Assembly (NCBI GenBank): GCA_902776375.1 | Contig: CACYPV010000008.1 | Span: forward strand, 1 to 60,874 | Reading direction: 5' to 3' | DNA length: 60,874 bases | Source of the DNA: an uncultured Ruminococcus sp. | GTDB taxonomy: Bacteria > Bacillota > Clostridia > Oscillospirales > Acutalibacteraceae | Shown: positions 2 to 60,494 of the stretch, piece by piece | How the letters are laid out: each line of letters starts with the position of its first letter | How positions within the stretch are numbered: the first letter of the stretch is position 1 | Program-made: the position numbers and the translations under genes | Notes under the pieces: generated by a model | Told to the model about the DNA's origin: nothing | The model's input: only the letters and a program-made list of their open reading frames with translations | Databases searched by the model: none

Positions 2-1081
2 GACAGCTGCGGCTATCCCGGCGGCGCTCCCACCGTTACCATCTCCGGCAACCCGACTGTCACCAGCACCAACGGCAAGCAGATCGGCGACTACAGCTAT
101 GGCAATAACGCTCTAGGCGAGGTCACCGCTACTTCCAGCACCATGACTCTGCCCACAGGACTTAAGTGGGTCGAGACTGATACACCCGGCGTTTACGAAG
201 TTGGTCAAAAGCTCTTTGTCGGTCACAACCTCCTTCTCGGCGGCGACATCGGCGTGAACTTCTACCTGAATCCTGTGATTCTTGATTCCTACAACGGAAC
301 CAAGACCGTGAAATTCACCTGCGACGGCGAAGAAACGACTGTTGCTGTTCCCGCAACAGCTGATGCTAAAGGCTACAAGGTAACCCTTAACGTGGTAGCC
401 GCTCGCATGGCACACAAGATCAACGCCGTGGTCTATGTTAATAACGGCAGCACAGCGCTCGCTGAGACCGATTCCTACAGCGTACAGGATTACGCCGAGG
501 CGGTCTTTGCAGAGCCTGCAAAGTATACCACCGCCAATAAGGCTGATGCGCTCAAGGCTCTGGCTAAGGCTATGCTCAACTACGGCGCACAGGCGCAGAA
601 CGTCTTTGCTTCCTCTCTGAAAGACAAGACTCCCGCTCCTGCCAATACCACAGTTGGCAATAACGGCTACAGCGCTGTTACCGTTGGCGATGTTCAGAAT
701 GCTATCAACGGCGACGCTTCCGATCTGACTGCTATTGCGGCTCAGCTCAACGCGGAATACTACACCAGCTCCTTGATCTATCTGCAGAACAACACTCTGC
801 GCATCTACTTCACTCCCAAGTCAAAACAACTCGGTGATTTGGATGGTATGGGCTTTGACGACAATCTGTCCGACTATTACTACTACAAGGATGTGGAAGG
901 CATCGCGGCTGCTGAGCTTGATGAACAGAAGGAATTCAAAGTAGGCAACGTTACCTTCAACTACTCCGCGCTCGATTATGTCGTAGCTGTATTGAACAGC
1001 AACAAGATGGGCCCCGCGCAGCAGAACCTCGCCAAGTCCCTGTTCCTGTACAACCAGGCGGCTAACGCGTACTTCGATTAA
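2..1081 (+). CDS. C-terminal part of a large secreted protein with a duplicated helical/beta module (5' end outside window)
   Basis: The frame is open from base 2, so the gene starts before the window and the first ATG at 143 is internal. What is visible is about 359 residues: a short Gly/Thr/Ser-rich stretch, then a module of about 280 residues starting near the motif GHNLLLGGDIGVNFY. The same module closes the alpha-amylase at the other end of the window (GHSISLDGDIAVNFY). Each module has two halves, each ending in a similar amphipathic helix (here AMLNYGAQAQNVF, then LFLYNQAANAYF). No enzyme domain lies within the visible part and no dockerin follows. From the amylase parallel, the protein is probably extracellular and carbohydrate-related; that is inference. 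It is followed after 19 bases by the 48-codon peptide gene and a terminator. Confidence 0.85.
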   Translation, partial: DSCGYPGGAPTVTISGNPTVTSTNGKQIGDYSYGNNALGEVTATSSTMTLPTGLKWVETDTPGVYEVGQKLFVGHNLLLGGDIGVNFYLNPVILDSYNGTKTVKFTCDGEETTVAVPATADAKGYKVTLNVVAARMAHKINAVVYVNNGSTALAETDSYSVQDYAEAVFAEPAKYTTANKADALKALAKAMLNYGAQAQNVFASSLKDKTPAPANTTVGNNGYSAVTVGDVQNAINGDASDLTAIAAQLNAEYYTSSLIYLQNNTLRIYFTPKSKQLGDLDGMGFDDNLSDYYYYKDVEGIAAAELDEQKEFKVGNVTFNYSALDYVVAVLNSNKMGPAQQNLAKSLFLYNQAANAYFD

Positions 1082-1100: not shown

Positions 1101-1247
1101 ATGAACAAAGAAACATATGAGCGTCTTGCTATGGACGTTACTAAATTCGACGTTGAAGACGTTATCACCACCTCGGGCGAAACACCCACCGGCACACCAC
1201 CCGCATTTGCTCCTAAGAATCCGTGGGAGATGCCCGTTGGCGTTTGA
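1101..1247 (+). CDS. 48-residue peptide with DVITTSGE motif; candidate RiPP-like precursor
   Basis: A short gene with a good ribosome binding site (AAAAGGAG, 8 nt before ATG 1101) and TGA stop at 1245-1247. The peptide begins MNKETYERLAMDVTKFDVED, carries DVITTSGE in the middle, then a Pro/Thr/Gly-rich part and ends NPWEMPVGV. It has no Cys, no signal peptide and no membrane helix. It is real because a diverged copy of the same peptide, with the same flanks, lies at 58561-58708. There the copy sits just upstream of a PqqD-like protein and an S26-like peptidase, which suggests that this is a substrate of a peptide-modification system. The leader/core split (acidic amphipathic N-terminus, Gly/Pro-rich C-terminus) fits such a precursor, but no modification is shown. 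It could instead be a stand-alone small protein. Confidence 0.75.
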   Translation: MNKETYERLAMDVTKFDVEDVITTSGETPTGTPPAFAPKNPWEMPVGV

Positions 1248-54616: not shown

Positions 54617-54665
54617 TAAATTGGATAATTTTTTGCTCATTTTTTATTTGTAAGGAGTGTTTTTT

Positions 54666-57600
54666 ATGCGTTTTACCAAAAAGCTTACAAGCGTTGTTCT
54701 CGCTCTGTGTATGCTTTTGTCCGTGGCGTCGGTCGGCGTCGTAACCGCCTCGGCAGAAGACACAGCCTACGAAACCTACGCTCAGGCATCGATCCGCGGC
54801 AGCAACATCCTGCACTGCTTCAACTGGTCGTACAACCAGATCAAGGCTAATTTGTCCGAAATCGCGAAGGCGGGCTACACCGCCGTGCAGACCTCTCCGG
54901 TCCAAAGCCCGAAGGACTACAATTCCTCTTGGACAGATACCCCTAATCAGTGGTGGAAGCTGTACCAGCCGCTGGGCTTTTCCGTTTCCAACAACAGCTG
55001 GCTCGGCACAAAGGCAGAGCTCACCTCGCTGTGTACCGAGGCTGATAAATACGGCATAAAGGTCGTTGTAGACATCGTAGCCAACCACCTGGCGAACAAC
55101 GGCACCGACGGCGGCACCTACAGCTACATCAACAGCGGCGTTGAAAGCGACCTGAAAAACGCCAATTACTACCACACCAACAACACCCGCACCAACGACA
55201 ACAACCGCTACAACATCACACAGTACCACCTCGGCATGCCCGACCTCAACACAGGCAATTCCTACATTCAGCAAAGGGCGCTCGGTCTGCTTGAAGAGTG
55301 CATCGACTGCGGCGTCGACGGCTTCCGCTTTGACGCGGCAAAGCACATCGAGGTTCCCGCAGACCCGTCAAACTGCAAAAGCGACTTCTGGCCTACGGTT
55401 ATCAACGGCGCCACAGCTTACGCTGAGCAGAAAGGAAAGGAAACGCCCTTCTATTACGGCGAGATCCTCGGCGGCGCAGGCACCGATATTTCCAACTACA
55501 CCCAGTACATGGCGGTGACCGATAACTACACCGGTGATCTGGCGCTCGACAAGGCTTACTGGGCATATGCGCCCGAATTGGCTAACGGCACATATCACAA
55601 GGGCGCGTCCGCTTCCGACAGCGTGCTTTGGGCGGAATCGCACGACACCTATATGGGCGAATCCGGTTCGGCGTGGACTAAAAACACCTCAAGCGTTGAT
55701 AATAACGTCATCAACCGCGCGTGGGCTATAGTCGGCGCGAGAGCCGGATCCACCGCGCTGTTCTTCGCGCGCCCAAATTCCACAATGGGTTACGCCAGCA
55801 CCGACGGCAACTGGAAGTCGAAGGCCGTTGCCGAAGTAAACAAGTTCAAAAACCATTTTGCCGACACAAACGAATATCTGGCAAGCTCCGGCAATAATGT
55901 CGCGTATATCGAGCGCGGCACCAAGGGCGTCGTCATCAGCAAGCTCGACGGCGGCGGACAGGTAAACCTCACCGCTCACCAAATGGAAGACGGCACATAT
56001 ACCGACTACGTTACGGGCGGCACGTTCACCGTATCCAACGGCGTAATCAGCGGCAACGTCGATTCTCAGGGCGTGGCGGTCGTCTACAACGCTCAGGACA
56101 GCGCCGGCAGCTTTATCGAAGCCGACACCCTTTACCTCGACCCCGGCATTTCAAGCTGGAAGCAAAGCGATGAGCGCTATGCTATGTACGTATTCAATTC
56201 AAACTCCTCCGCTTGGGTGAGCATGGCTGACACCGACAGCGACGGAATATTCGAGGCGGCGGTCCCCACCGGCGACTGGACGGGTGTTATCTTCTGCACG
56301 ATGGACGATTCCGACTCGACCAACAGCTGGGGAAACAAAATTAATCAGACCGTCGATCTGTTCCCGACTAACGGCAACGACCTGTTCACCGTGACCGGAG
56401 CAGACTCCGGCGACAGCACAAAATACAACGGCACATGGAGCGTTTACAGCCCTCAGGAGGAGGAAACCACCCAGCCCGAAACCCAGCCCGAAACCCAGCC
56501 TGAAACCCAGCCCGCAACTCAACCGACCACAGACGAACCCGAATCAAATACCTACACCGTCTATGCGTACAACGCTCCCGGATGGAACACAATGAAGGTG
56601 TATTATTGGGGCAGCAGCGCGGCGACTAATCCCCAGTGGCCGGGTATCGATATGACCCGGGGCGGCACGGTCTATACGGCGGAGATCCCGAGCGACGCAA
56701 CGGGCGTTATCTTCAATAACGGCAACGGCGGCAACGGAAACCAGACCGTAAACATCACGGGCGCTTTGATCCACGATAACGCTCAGTACTATATCAATCC
56801 GTCATCCAATTCCAATTGTTCGGTAGAAGAGGCGCCCACATATTACCTCGTAGGCACAATGTCGTCTTGGGGTAAAAACGATAATTACGCGTTCACCCTC
56901 AGCCCCGATCCCTCCGGTAATGTTCAGTATAAGCTGAGCGGCGTATCCCTCACCGCAGGAACCGAGCTCAAAGTCAATGACAGCAAAGATCACTGGTATC
57001 CCGGCGGAGCCAACTACACCGTGACCGCCGACGGCACCTATGATGTTTACTTCCGCCCGAACGGCGACGGCAACAGCGACTGGTATCAAAAATACATCTA
57101 CCTCGCCAACGTCACCCCCTGCACCGTAACATGGAAGAATTACGACGACACGGTGCTTGATACCGAAACCTACACCTACGGCGAAACGCCCACCTACAAG
57201 GGCGAAACTCCCACCAAGCTCTCCGACCTGCAAAACACCTACACCTTCACCGGTTGGAGCCCCGAGCCCGCCGCGGTAACGGGCGATATCACCTACACCG
57301 CGCAGTATACGCCCACCGCCCACAATTGGCAGGTGAGCTGGACATGGAACGGCTATCAAAGTGCCTACGCGCACTTTAGCTGCACCGATTGCGCAATGAC
57401 TACCGACAAGGCTGCGGCGATAACCTCCGTCACCACCGCGCCCACCATGACTGTCGCGGGTTCTGTAGTCTATACCGCCACCGTAACAGGTCCCGACGAA
57501 CAGACCTATACCGACTCAAAGACCGAAGTCCTTCCCGTGACCGCCGTTCATTTGGCGGGTCACTCCATCAGCCTCGACGGCGACATAGCGGTCAACTTCT

Positions 57601-58406
57601 ACATGGAGCTCGACAGCGCGCTCGCGAACAGCCAAACCGCATACATGCAGTTCTACGTTCCCGATACCAGCCCCGAGTACCAAGACCAGAAGGTATACGT
57701 CAAAGACCTCACTCCCATTGAGCAGGGCGGCAAGACCTATTATGTGTTCAAGTGCCGCGTAGCCGCCAAGGATATGGACGCCCAAATCAGCGCGCAGCTT
57801 ATCAACGGCGACGATGTCAGCGATACATACACCTATTCCGTCAGGGAATACGCAAATTACCTGCTCGATCATCTTGATGTTCCCCAATACGCGGCTGCCG
57901 CAAACCTTGTCAGGGCAATGCTCACCTACGGCGACAACGCAAACGTCTACTTTGACGAAACCGCCGAGGCGCTCGCACCCTCCAACACCGTCATACCCGA
58001 ATACATCTCAACCGTAGCTTCGTTTGCCGACAGCATCTTCAACGGTGCGTCGCTCTCGCTCAAATCAAAAACCACGCTCTCGCTGTTCTTCAAGAGCGGC
58101 TCCGATCTGACCATCTCAATGCAGGGCAAGACCGAGGGCGTCGACTATGAGCTGCAGCACGTCGGCAACGATTACGTCATCCGTATCCGCAACATACCGG
58201 TATTCGACCTCGACAAGCCTATCACAGTTCGGGTCAATGGGGAAGACGCAGTCAGCTACAGTCCGCTGACCTACTGCTTCAAAGCGCAGGATTCCTCAAA
58301 CGTCAAGCTCGCAAACACCGTAAAGGCATTGTATAATTACTGGCTCGCGGCAAAAAGCTACTTCGGCGGAATAGAACCTGAGGTAGACGAAACCGAGAAG
58401 CTCTGA
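54666..58406 (+). CDS. Secreted multidomain alpha-amylase (GH13)
   Basis: 1246 residues. Signal peptide (about 1-32). The GH13 barrel (about 38-470) has the four regions: D136-IVAN-H141, GFRFD223AAKH with the nucleophile Asp223, acid Glu266 in YYGEIL, and H326-D327. Then a beta domain (about 475-600), a linker of ETQP repeats, a CBM26-like starch-binding domain (about 640-715, YYWGSSAATNPQWPGIDM), a second beta domain with YLVGTMSSWG (about 720-815), an InlB/Flg_new-type repeat (FTGWSPEPAAVTGDITYTAQY), and the C-terminal module shared with the gene at 2-1081 (from about 964). No dockerin and no sorting signal are seen, so attachment may depend on the C-terminal module. AAGGAG lies 9 nt before ATG 54666. 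Confidence 0.94.
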   Translation: MRFTKKLTSVVLALCMLLSVASVGVVTASAEDTAYETYAQASIRGSNILHCFNWSYNQIKANLSEIAKAGYTAVQTSPVQSPKDYNSSWTDTPNQWWKLYQPLGFSVSNNSWLGTKAELTSLCTEADKYGIKVVVDIVANHLANNGTDGGTYSYINSGVESDLKNANYYHTNNTRTNDNNRYNITQYHLGMPDLNTGNSYIQQRALGLLEECIDCGVDGFRFDAAKHIEVPADPSNCKSDFWPTVINGATAYAEQKGKETPFYYGEILGGAGTDISNYTQYMAVTDNYTGDLALDKAYWAYAPELANGTYHKGASASDSVLWAESHDTYMGESGSAWTKNTSSVDNNVINRAWAIVGARAGSTALFFARPNSTMGYASTDGNWKSKAVAEVNKFKNHFADTNEYLASSGNNVAYIERGTKGVVISKLDGGGQVNLTAHQMEDGTYTDYVTGGTFTVSNGVISGNVDSQGVAVVYNAQDSAGSFIEADTLYLDPGISSWKQSDERYAMYVFNSNSSAWVSMADTDSDGIFEAAVPTGDWTGVIFCTMDDSDSTNSWGNKINQTVDLFPTNGNDLFTVTGADSGDSTKYNGTWSVYSPQEEETTQPETQPETQPETQPATQPTTDEPESNTYTVYAYNAPGWNTMKVYYWGSSAATNPQWPGIDMTRGGTVYTAEIPSDATGVIFNNGNGGNGNQTVNITGALIHDNAQYYINPSSNSNCSVEEAPTYYLVGTMSSWGKNDNYAFTLSPDPSGNVQYKLSGVSLTAGTELKVNDSKDHWYPGGANYTVTADGTYDVYFRPNGDGNSDWYQKYIYLANVTPCTVTWKNYDDTVLDTETYTYGETPTYKGETPTKLSDLQNTYTFTGWSPEPAAVTGDITYTAQYTPTAHNWQVSWTWNGYQSAYAHFSCTDCAMTTDKAAAITSVTTAPTMTVAGSVVYTATVTGPDEQTYTDSKTEVLPVTAVHLAGHSISLDGDIAVNFYMELDSALANSQTAYMQFYVPDTSPEYQDQKVYVKDLTPIEQGGKTYYVFKCRVAAKDMDAQISAQLINGDDVSDTYTYSVREYANYLLDHLDVPQYAAAANLVRAMLTYGDNANVYFDETAEALAPSNTVIPEYISTVASFADSIFNGASLSLKSKTTLSLFFKSGSDLTISMQGKTEGVDYELQHVGNDYVIRIRNIPVFDLDKPITVRVNGEDAVSYSPLTYCFKAQDSSNVKLANTVKALYNYWLAAKSYFGGIEPEVDETEKL

Positions 58407-58499: not shown

Positions 58500-58528
58500 T
58501 TGAAATCCTGCTAAAAATATAGTAAAAT
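58500..58528 (+). promoter_or_regulatory. Promoter upstream of the peptide remnant and the PqqD-like gene
   Basis: TTGAAA (58500-58505), 17 nt, TAAAAT (58523-58528), just after the amylase terminator. It would now drive the PqqD/S26 genes. Confidence 0.75.
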
Positions 58529-58560
58529 AATGTAATGAATGTCAAAGATGAGATAAACGA

Positions 58561-58708
58561 ATGTACATAAAAGCATATGATCGTCTCTTGATCGATATTG
58601 CAATATTTGACATTTAGGTTGTTATCACCTCCTCCGGTGAAAGCGCCGGCGGAGACGGTGTGCCTGGCTTTGACCCAAAATCCGTGGAAAATGCCAGTTG
58701 GTGTTTAA
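58561..58708 (+). pseudogene. Decayed copy of the 48-residue peptide gene
   Basis: It reads MYIKAYDRLLIDIAIFDI, then TAG in place of the Glu codon, then VVITSSGESAGGDG and GFDPK. A 2-nt loss shifts the frame, and the last codons, in the new frame, read PWKMPVGV and stop. It aligns over its whole length with the intact peptide at 1101-1247, and the stretch before ATG (GATGAGATAAACGAATG) matches that copy but has lost the strong AAAAGGAG site. Three separate lesions make a sequencing error unlikely. Confidence 0.8.
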
Positions 58709-58736
58709 TGCTGTTAATAGTTTAAACAAACTATAT

Positions 58737-58775
58737 GCGCCGCCGTTTTTGGTGCTTCTCTTAAAACGGCGGCGC
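58737..58775 (+). other. Former terminator hairpin that lacks a T run
   Basis: Perfect 13-bp stem GCGCCGCCGTTTT/AAAACGGCGGCGC, the counterpart of the terminator at 1280-1323, but followed by AGCAGCTATG. Read-through from the promoter at 58500 into the PqqD-like gene is therefore possible. Confidence 0.75.
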
Positions 58776-58835
58776 AGCAGCTATGCAGGTATTCAATAGA
58801 GATCATACCGCTGATTTTTATTGAATGTTTGTATA

Positions 58836-58871
58836 AAGGAAGTGTTATCTATGAAGGAAGTGTTATCTATG
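58836..58871 (+). repeat. Exact 18-bp tandem duplication of a ribosome binding site and start codon
   Basis: AAGGAAGTGTTATCTATG occurs twice without a break (58836-58853, 58854-58871), giving two in-frame starts, 58851 and 58869, each with the same spacing. Confidence 0.95.
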
Positions 58872-59129
58872 AAGCTGAAAAGTTGCTTTATCTCACATCA
58901 GTTCGACGGTCAGGCGGTCATCGTCCCCACCGCGGACGCAAGCTTTCACGGCTTGGTTCAGGGCAACAAGACCCTTGCCGCCATCACCGACTGCCTAAAG
59001 CAGGAAACCACCGAATCCGAGATCGTCGATACCCTCTGCGCCCGTTTTGACGGCGACAGAAAGGATATCGAGGCGGATGTCCGTGAAGCGCTCGTAAAGT
59101 TAAGAGAGATCGGAGCGATAGATGAATAA
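58869..59129 (+). CDS. PqqD-like protein (RiPP recognition element fold)
   Basis: 86 residues from ATG 58869, or 92 from the duplicated ATG 58851. PqqD-family pattern: FHGLVQGNKTLAAITDCLKQ, then TTESEIVDTLCARFDG, then IEADVREALVKLREIGAIDE. Such small winged-helix proteins bind leader peptides for modifying enzymes in PQQ, lasso and radical-SAM peptide systems. Here it follows a decayed peptide gene and overlaps a peptidase-like gene by 8 nt. No radical SAM or cyclase gene is seen beside it, so the modifying enzyme, if any, is elsewhere. Confidence 0.85.
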   Translation: MKLKSCFISHQFDGQAVIVPTADASFHGLVQGNKTLAAITDCLKQETTESEIVDTLCARFDGDRKDIEADVREALVKLREIGAIDE

Positions 59130-59547
59130 GAAGTTTGAGGACGTTATCGCCGAGCAGGGCAGATTGATATACACTAACGTGGGCGACAGCATGGAGCCCG
59201 TTATCCGCGAGGGCAACCTGCTTATTATCGAAGCCGTAAAAAAGCCGTTAAAGGTCGGCGACGTGCCCTTGTATAAGCGCGACAGCGGACAGTATGTGCT
59301 GCACCGCATAGTTAAAATAAAGCGCGGCGAATACACAATGAAGGGCGACAACCGCACCGCCCTCGAAAAGGGGATAACCGACAGGCATATCATCGGCGTC
59401 CTTACTGGAATAGTCAGGAACGGCAAGACCTACCCTGTAGAGACCGCGCAGGAATACCTCGCGCGCGAAAGCGGCTTGGCGCCCGCGCAGCCTAAAGGGA
59501 TAAAGGCGAAGCTCGGAAAAATCATCAGTTTTAAAAAAAGGGGATAA
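59122..59547 (+). CDS. S24/S26-type peptidase (signal-peptidase-like), soluble
   Basis: 141 residues. Ser23 in VGDSMEPVIREGN is the nucleophile of the S26/S24 fold; YVLHRIV with His61 and KGDNR are the other boxes. The His in place of the usual Lys recalls the SipW/ER type. No membrane helix is present, unlike a true signal peptidase, so it acts in the cytosol or at the membrane face. The C-terminal 30 residues are basic. It overlaps the PqqD gene by 8 nt. It may cut a leader peptide; the substrate is unknown. Confidence 0.85.
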   Translation: MNKKFEDVIAEQGRLIYTNVGDSMEPVIREGNLLIIEAVKKPLKVGDVPLYKRDSGQYVLHRIVKIKRGEYTMKGDNRTALEKGITDRHIIGVLTGIVRNGKTYPVETAQEYLARESGLAPAQPKGIKAKLGKIISFKKRG

Positions 59548-59549
59548 AA

Positions 59550-60494
59550 ATGAAAGAAACAAGCTTAAAAACACTAAAGATATTCGTCAGGTCAATAACG
59601 GCATTGGCGTTTGCGCTGTTTACGGCATATCAAATATATATGGCGTTAAAAACAGATGTTGGCTTATACGGCAGGATCATCGGTATCGTTTGCTATACGT
59701 TTTTGGCCGCGGCGTCGGTCTTTTCCCTCATTCATCAGCGCGGAATCAGGATATTGCGCTCCGTGCTGTTCGTCGCAGGCTTGGCAGGACTGTTTTTTAT
59801 GCGTCTGCTCAGCGTTGCCCGCGTGTTCGGAGCCTTGGACTTTTCGTTCTTCCCCTCTGTTTTGAATTGCTCGGAATACCTTGCCTCGCAGCTCGGCACG
59901 CTGGTTCTGCTGCTGTATTATCTTGCGGTCAGAACTAACAAGTATATCAAAAACAAACGCAGGGTAACTATTATAATGATGATATTTGTCATAGCCTTTT
60001 TTGGTTTAGGTCTGATATCCGAGTGGACGCTCAGGGCAAAATACGGCTACAACATCGATTCGACTTTGCAGTTGACTCTTATCAGCCGCGTTGTGTACTT
60101 CTGCGGCTTTGCCCTCACTGCCTTAAACTTTATGCTGCCGCCCACAAAAGTGGAATCGGAAGCAGAGCAATATATCATCAAAGAGCAGAGCGAAGCGGAG
60201 ATCCTTGTGTCGTCTTCCGATGAAAACCGAAATCATCCCGCGCATGATAAAAAAAGGAACCCCACTCTCGACGACGCGAATATCATCCTTAACACCGTAA
60301 ACAGCGGCAGATCACGTTCCCACGGCGAAAGAAAAAGGAGCCCCGTCCTCGACGAAGCGGATATCATTTTGGATCCCGCGCAAACCACCAGACCACATTC
60401 GCACGGCGAGAAAAAAAGAAGCCCCGTCCTCGACGACGCCGACATCGTTTTCTCCGACACCGATAACATCCACTCCAAAAAACACAATCGCTGA
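59550..60494 (+). CDS. Membrane protein with about six helices and a triplicated KKRSPVLDDADII tail
   Basis: 314 residues. About six hydrophobic segments lie in residues 10-205. The cytosolic tail (about 210-314) has three copies of the unit (K/R)KR(N/S)P(T/V)LD(D/E)A(N/D)I(I/V), each after a HGE(K/R) or HDK lead, spaced about 36 and 34 residues apart. The unit has no family I recognise; it could be a repeated docking site. It starts 2 nt after the S26 gene, so it is likely cotranscribed with the PqqD and S26 genes. Confidence 0.8.
   Translation: MKETSLKTLKIFVRSITALAFALFTAYQIYMALKTDVGLYGRIIGIVCYTFLAAASVFSLIHQRGIRILRSVLFVAGLAGLFFMRLLSVARVFGALDFSFFPSVLNCSEYLASQLGTLVLLLYYLAVRTNKYIKNKRRVTIIMMIFVIAFFGLGLISEWTLRAKYGYNIDSTLQLTLISRVVYFCGFALTALNFMLPPTKVESEAEQYIIKEQSEAEILVSSSDENRNHPAHDKKRNPTLDDANIILNTVNSGRSRSHGERKRSPVLDEADIILDPAQTTRPHSHGEKKRSPVLDDADIVFSDTDNIHSKKHNR

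Follow-up and report, generated by a model that had tools for sequence, protein, structure and literature searches.

The closest described relatives of the gene set reported here are the pathways for phosphorylated and phosphoglycosylated lasso peptides: paeninodin, pseudomycoidin and the bsf cluster (PMC9266682, PMC8498205, PMC10368454). Those pathways combine a PqqD-type B1 protein with an HprK-like kinase, a nucleotidyltransferase, an ABC transporter and a leader of the YxxPxL type. HprK-like lasso kinases modify serine (PMC9266682, PMC10368454), PsmN, a nucleotidyltransferase of a lasso pathway, attaches hexoses to phosphoserine (PMC9266682), and one group of lasso leaders conserves YxxPxL at positions -17 to -12 (PMC10368454). 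Here we describe a related gene set starting from a locus in a 60,874-nucleotide contig of an uncultured Ruminococcus sp. (CACYPV010000008.1), the whole of which was analysed and is called the window below. An original prediction, made from the letters of the window, had named a remnant of a peptide gene followed by genes for a PqqD-like protein, a soluble S26-type peptidase and a six-helix membrane protein, and had proposed the peptide as the substrate of the PqqD-like carrier and the peptidase. All four features were confirmed.

The wider set to which this locus belongs shares with the lasso systems the PqqD-type protein, an HprK-like kinase, a nucleotidyltransferase, an ABC transporter and the leader motif. 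Unlike those systems, no cyclase C or transglutaminase-like B2 was found near the clusters, an S26 peptidase is present instead, and the precursors are many and dispersed behind large open reading frames (ORFs). The best explanation, to which we give moderate confidence, is that the window holds a reduced copy of a Clostridia-wide pathway resembling those for ribosomally synthesised and post-translationally modified peptides (RiPPs), with binding by PqqD, tailoring by the kinase and the nucleotidyltransferase NTP_transf_5 (NTP5), leader removal by S26 and a linear product. In general, a RiPP pathway is recognised by an encoded precursor linked to a predicted leader-binding RiPP recognition element (RRE), and such a pair is present here; this is likely a new RiPP variant. 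We found no description of the gene set in the open-licence literature, including the available parts of PMC7533575, PMC9266682, PMC8498205, PMC13289728, PMC10368454 and PMC4289311, with subscription journals outside the scope of the search. In a lasso context, one study of rumen genomes reported the kinase in about 58%, PqqD in about 46% and the nucleotidyltransferase in about 30% of those it analysed (PMC7533575), and a 2026 rumen bacteriocin survey lists 153 RRE-containing clusters (PMC13289728). The gene set is widespread in gut and cellulose-degrading Clostridia, and apparently undescribed.

The peptide family and its PqqD-type partner

The peptide gene at the head of the locus (58561..58708, + strand) was predicted to be a decayed gene of 48 codons, and it was recovered through an intact paralogue in the window (1101..1247, + strand) at 46% identity (E=1.5e-4). 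It has an in-frame TAG stop at 58615-58617 and, as judged by eye, a one-base frameshift, being one base longer than the intact gene (148 against 147 nt). The intact gene encodes a precursor-like peptide of 48 aa with the leader YERLAM...EDVITTS and a variable tail. The window has a single DVITTS pattern, an exact one at 1158 (0.16 expected with up to one mismatch; present in 16 of 100 shuffles). Across the whole genome, a search at E<=10 gave 12 peptide matches, down to E=0.74 for the weakest. Two of these are full-length (92-100% identity), two are fragments lying no more than 2 kb from a contig end, one is the decayed copy and the remaining seven are more distant. Four peptides scanned against Pfam and NCBIfam had no match, which rules out a known family.

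Across the peptide family, the leaders carry the lasso motif in a form that is only partly canonical. The pattern [YF]xxPx[LIVMF] is present in 27 of 56 peptides, compared with a mean of 0.6 and a maximum of 4 in 500 shuffles; with proline or threonine allowed at the central position ([YF]xx[PT]x[LIVMF]) it is present in 40 of 56, compared with a mean of 1.8 and a maximum of 6. The distance from the tyrosine to E-D-V/I is exactly 13 in 39 of the 42 peptides measured (of 54). A loose scan of short ORFs for YxxP was too noisy for use, giving 40 loci on the + strand and 47 on the - strand.

The gene for the PqqD-type protein (58869..59129, + strand; 86 aa) matches PF05402 at E=3e-10. On TIGR03859, the family of PqqD proteins in PQQ biosynthesis, it scores 22.3 bits against a cut-off of 46, which rules out an ordinary PQQ-associated PqqD. 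The best matches of its profile among solved proteins are the lasso B1 proteins TbiB1 (1e-9) and TfuB1 (6e-8; PDB 5v1u/5v1v, 6jx3). These are also its best structural matches: its predicted model (pLDDT 88) gave six PDB matches at E<=0.001, all of them TbiB1 or TfuB1 with leader. They differ from the window protein in having 22-26% identity to it and other partner enzymes. By sequence and predicted fold, the window protein looks like a lasso-type leader-binding domain, and together with the lasso-type motif in the peptides this agrees with its predicted role as a leader binder. An 18-nt tandem duplication at 58832-58867, in the region of the ribosome-binding site, gives this gene two in-frame starts (58851 and 58869).

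To relate the two families, we searched 39 genomes of the genus and order, own genome included, and a sample of 243 genomes from the class; the own genome is excluded from the statistics. The peptide profile matched in 22 of the nearer genomes and PqqD in 30. In the class, peptide matches occurred in 35 of 243 genomes (34 of 242 without the own genome). PqqD was present in 32 of the 34 peptide genomes compared with 77 of the 208 peptide-free genomes (Fisher P 1e-10, a test that takes genomes as independent and ignores kinship). The two families are also co-located. Within 3.2 kb, a limit chosen after inspecting the data, 10 of the 52 class PqqD genes among the matches listed have a peptide gene (0.54 expected), as do 9 of 58 short-frame PqqD genes from relatives in the genus and order (0.41 expected under random placement); the per-genome table behind the co-occurrence counts names every genome with a match. 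At 2 kb, 8 of 52 and 9 of 58 remain, with about 0.3 expected in each case. Among the 16 genomes with a single peptide, 10 have it beside PqqD. The proposed link between peptide and PqqD therefore holds by co-occurrence and by co-location, in the own genome's relatives and beyond, and so passes one of the two checks by which the original prediction could have been refuted.

The fuller gene set and its peptidase

Outside the window, the order of genes in fuller loci is peptide, HprK-like kinase, PqqD, S26, ABC transporter and nucleotidyltransferase (NTP5), found whole or in part in several families. All six genes are present in four loci outside the genus (L180, L181, L183, L185; L and G numbers are our handles for loci and genomes) and one in its own order (L138). 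Named carriers of the six-gene cluster are Acetivibrio alkalicellulosi DSM 17461 (L211) and Herbivorax sp. ANBcel31 (L207). Other out-of-genus loci have five (L182, without ABC; L184 and L187, without NTP5) or four (L186), one has peptide, PqqD and S26 only (L188) and one has the peptide alone (L196), the ABC label in all of these out-of-genus loci coming from a one-sequence profile, with three transporters checked against NCBIfam. Loci within the genus often show no kinase and have the membrane protein in addition: L130 combines peptide and PqqD genes with an S26-NTP5 fusion and the membrane protein, and in L131 and L132 the peptide and PqqD genes are accompanied by the membrane protein. Neither the kinase-like gene nor NTP5 was found in the window, and its locus is a shortened copy of the wider set. 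The original prediction had stated that no radical SAM enzyme, cyclase or ABC exporter is adjacent. For the exporter this is true locally, but wider loci often have an ABC transporter, and one has a radical SAM gene.

A kinase alignment scan of genome records gave at least 571 loci. In the best 80 of these, PqqD lies within 6 kb on the same strand in 60, S26 in 47, both in 45, ABC in 27 and NTP5 in 21. In the 45 of these 80 with 5 kb on both sides, PqqD is present in 36, S26 in 27, ABC in 18 and NTP5 in 13. The D-x-D motif of NTP5 is invariant in 12 sequences, and we take PsmN to be a member of the same family, PF14907. In the kinase-like proteins, the spacing from the invariant histidine to the P-loop lysine is 21 (H85/K106; 19 aligned of 24 matches), identical to that of the lasso kinase BsfK (H148/K169; PMC10368454). 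When three kinase-like proteins were scanned against NCBIfam, ScmC came out best (1e-7 to 2e-5), with scores far below cut-offs. The SynChlorMet and HprK-related cassettes (TIGR04249, TIGR04352) are alike in having a kinase-like partner; they are unlike the present set in that scores fall far under their cut-offs and a radical SAM protein was seen in one locus only (L134) among the proteins scanned. In that locus, a radical SAM/SPASM gene (L134:10076-11428) follows NTP5 and resembles geopeptide maturases, under the cut-off; a second, cysteine-containing peptide gene lies beyond it on the other strand. At L054 (G000:C20:36500-52500), kinase-like, PqqD, S26 and NTP5 genes stand beside Wzz-like and glycosyltransferase-like genes, labelled by eye, which hints at a link with exopolysaccharide.

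So many shared parts raise the possibility of an ordinary lasso pathway, with its cyclase and B2 encoded elsewhere. The kinase, PqqD, nucleotidyltransferase and transporter types are held in common with lasso systems, and the leader motif is similar. However, no match to B2 (PF13471) was found in 17 of 19 carriers, and the remaining two had a single match each, away from the clusters and in one case at the cut-off. Asn_synthase (PF00733, cyclase C) matched in all 19 carriers, no nearer than about 13 kb to any peptide-PqqD locus; for both of these negatives, some assemblies are in short contigs and genes could be missed. By eye, the peptide tails also lack a common Gly1 with Asp or Glu at 7-9. 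We reject a lasso pathway proper because B2 and cyclase were not found with the clusters in these assemblies, and one completed by distant genes is very improbable.

In place of B2, the clusters carry a soluble S26-type peptidase (window 59122..59547, + strand; 141 aa), whose ORF overlaps that of PqqD by 8 nt. It matches PF00717 (Peptidase_S24) at E=7e-7 and TIGR02228 (signal peptidase I) at E=4e-12, with 46.3 bits against a cut-off of 51.85. Residues S23, H61, R62, G75 and D76 are invariant in all 21 aligned sequences (of 26 matches). With the S26 signal peptidases SipW, Sec11 and TIGR02228 it shares the GxSMxP and LHR motifs (GDSMEP ... LHR in the window) and the pairing of serine with histidine, not lysine. 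It differs from them in its length (about 120-140 aa in proteins of the window type), its position within a peptide cluster and, as judged by eye in the 141-aa ORF, the lack of a hydrophobic segment as membrane anchor. Matches of its profile to solved signal peptidases are weak, the best at 6e-4. A role for S26 as the peptide protease is plausible.

Alternatively, PqqD would bind and the kinase and nucleotidyltransferase would modify the peptide, with the conserved serine as the modified residue, while S26 would act on another target such as neighbouring secreted proteins. The serine of D-V-I-x-T-S is nearly invariant across the 30 peptides of alignment A3, serine is the residue modified by the HprK-like lasso kinases introduced above, and some peptide-PqqD loci (L131, L132, L034, L189) showed no S26. 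Against this alternative, small residues at the candidate P1 position suit signal-peptidase-type enzymes, and the S26 gene either overlaps that of PqqD or directly adjoins it in the window, L130, L133, L135 and L136. In L130 it is naturally fused to NTP5, in parallel with the B2-N fusions reported in PMC8498205. We consider a separate target for S26 unlikely, though worth keeping in view.

The last gene of the locus (59550..60494, + strand) begins 2 nt after the S26 ORF and encodes the six-helix membrane protein of 314 aa. It had no match above cut-off in Pfam or NCBIfam. Six long helices are predicted from a three-sequence alignment (mean pLDDT 65.5), with a charged C-terminal tail at low confidence. 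The model had no PDB match at E<=0.001, and GPCR-like matches at TM about 0.2-0.35 are not meaningful. The protein was found only in this genus, in 6 of the 39 nearer genomes (own included), one weakly; in relatives, six of its seven copies have a peptide gene no more than 3.2 kb away (0.1 expected). Its tail is encoded by three repeats with 81-nt spacing (60246..60446, + strand) that read P-T/V-L-D-D/E-A-x-I. One similar stretch occurs in L038:15040-15888, and the relatives in L131, L132 and L141, at about 230 aa, are too short for such a tail. That the repeats mimic the peptide motif is ruled out, since the peptide profile has no positive score there.

A proposed pathway and the findings that weigh against it

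From sequence and from analogy with lasso systems, we infer that this gene set would bind, cleave, modify and export the peptide. The short peptides would be the precursors, and the PqqD-type protein would bind their N-terminal leader through Y-x-x-P/T-x-L, as lasso B1 proteins do. The HprK-like kinase and NTP_transf_5, encoded elsewhere in the own genome, would probably add a phosphate to the peptide and then a sugar or a nucleotide. The soluble S26 enzyme would remove the leader in the stead of lasso B2, perhaps after D-V-I-x-T-S; this site is a guess from the small residues that end the conserved block. Export would be by the ABC transporter in fuller clusters and possibly by the six-helix protein in the window, which is the weakest step. 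What leaves the pathway would be no lasso but a short and linear peptide, often an acidic one. The own genome has five PqqD matches over the cut-off and two weak ones, with three matches each for S26, the membrane protein and the kinase-like protein. Because peptide genes outnumber enzyme sets there, the enzymes would have to serve dispersed precursors in trans. The locus in the window no longer has a working precursor of its own, and the PqqD and S26 encoded there would therefore have to act on peptides from intact copies, 1101-1247 among them. The original interpretation is upheld in its pairing of peptide and PqqD, which the lasso-type leader motif also supports, and has to be widened in that the window is a reduced copy of a set with a kinase, NTP5 and often an ABC transporter.

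Several findings weigh against this pathway. Most peptide genes are not beside PqqD; in the own genome only two are (the decayed copy on C8 and one on C16). Six of the 16 single-peptide genomes lack a peptide beside PqqD (G041, G257, G129, G255, G046 and G233, the match in G233 being weak and within a 608-aa frame), and G259 has four peptide matches (best 3.9e-8) and no PqqD at E<=1e-4. A recognised peptide lies near the kinase in just 13 of the best 80 kinase loci (12 of the 45 with full flanks), where a reversed-sequence decoy gave zero peptide matches at the same threshold. In 33 of the 80 (18 of the 45), no S26 was found near the kinase. The three kinase-like proteins scanned had no Pfam match and no kinase family above cut-off, and the kinase profile matched no HprK structure in the PDB. 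The spacing from lysine to aspartate is 22, compared with 18 in BsfK (PMC10368454), and the first aspartate varies. Within the peptides, the central proline of YxxPxL is replaced in about half, and some out-of-genus peptides (L189, L234, L242, L259) have the serine of the putative cleavage site missing or displaced. Finally, a cut after that serine would place the tyrosine at -20, compared with the -17 reported for lasso leaders.

Peptide genes behind large secreted proteins

The peptide genes have a second association. In 37 of 56 distinct peptide genes, an ORF of at least 300 aa ends no more than 60 nt upstream on the same strand, and in 27 of those 37 the upstream ORF has a hydrophobic stretch near a possible start. 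Under the same criterion, 176 (13%) of the 1348 called genes in 120 such loci lie behind an ORF of at least 300 aa, and 105 (8%) behind one with a hydrophobic start; a stricter criterion gives a baseline of 6%. Near relatives are counted separately here, so the contrast is descriptive. The association, with most peptide genes far from PqqD, would also be expected if the peptides were no substrates at all and were instead small translated ORFs that regulate or couple with genes for large secreted proteins, the PqqD cluster having another substrate. In contrast, PqqD is associated with the peptides at the level of genomes, the leader motif is far above shuffles and the peptide sequence is conserved as protein in genomes of many families. 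A purely regulatory role is accordingly improbable in our judgement.

The upstream proteins are diverse, with LRR, lectin-like, beta-helix, Big_2 and InlB-type repeats. By eye, the C-termini of many nevertheless look alike and take one of two forms, WYARGYxxYxDxxG... or LVKAMxxYGxxAxxYF, seen upstream of peptide genes in L183, L207, L237 and L138, in L182, L143 and L145, and in the window at 2-1081 and 54657-58406. The first of these window genes (2..1081, + strand) is the 3' part of a gene that runs off the contig, called surface-protein-like for its C-terminal form; the intact peptide gene begins about 20 nt behind its end at 1081. The second (54657..58406, + strand), upstream of the decayed copy, encodes an alpha-amylase-like protein of 1249 aa with CBM26 (PF00128 7e-13, PF16738 4e-11). 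In L130, L131, L132, L133, L055, L040 and L140, small dockerin proteins or lipoproteins with matching tails (e.g. ELPFIPxx) stand beside peptide or PqqD genes, the dockerin label being Pfam-checked for L130 and L055 only. Some peptide tails resemble, by eye, those of their neighbours (NPYDLPIDE and DPYDLPFDDD in L040; DLPPMP in both in L140). In L148:6284-12505, three identical peptide genes lie about 3 kb apart, each behind a large secreted-type gene.

Between the amylase-like gene and the decayed copy, the original prediction had placed a promoter. A promoter-like site is present at 58500-58528, but it is no evidence for the locus because such sites are only in mild excess in the window (8, compared with 3.5 in shuffles).

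The link to secreted proteins is the least explained and perhaps the most interesting part of these results. Each peptide might serve the large secreted protein whose gene directly precedes its own, and in modified, acidic form might decorate, anchor or signal for that surface protein. We regard this as a long shot, but if true it would be a new system of surface-protein maturation built from lasso-pathway parts. Since the peptide genes are so closely linked to those of large proteins that mostly look secreted, a role at the surface can be tested. If the proposed pathway is correct, many families of gut and cellulolytic Clostridia would use lasso-type recognition, and probably lasso-type tailoring, without lassos, and a relative of signal peptidases would serve as leader protease. 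Genome mining that requires a cyclase or B2 would then miss the pathway or file it as 'RRE-containing' only.

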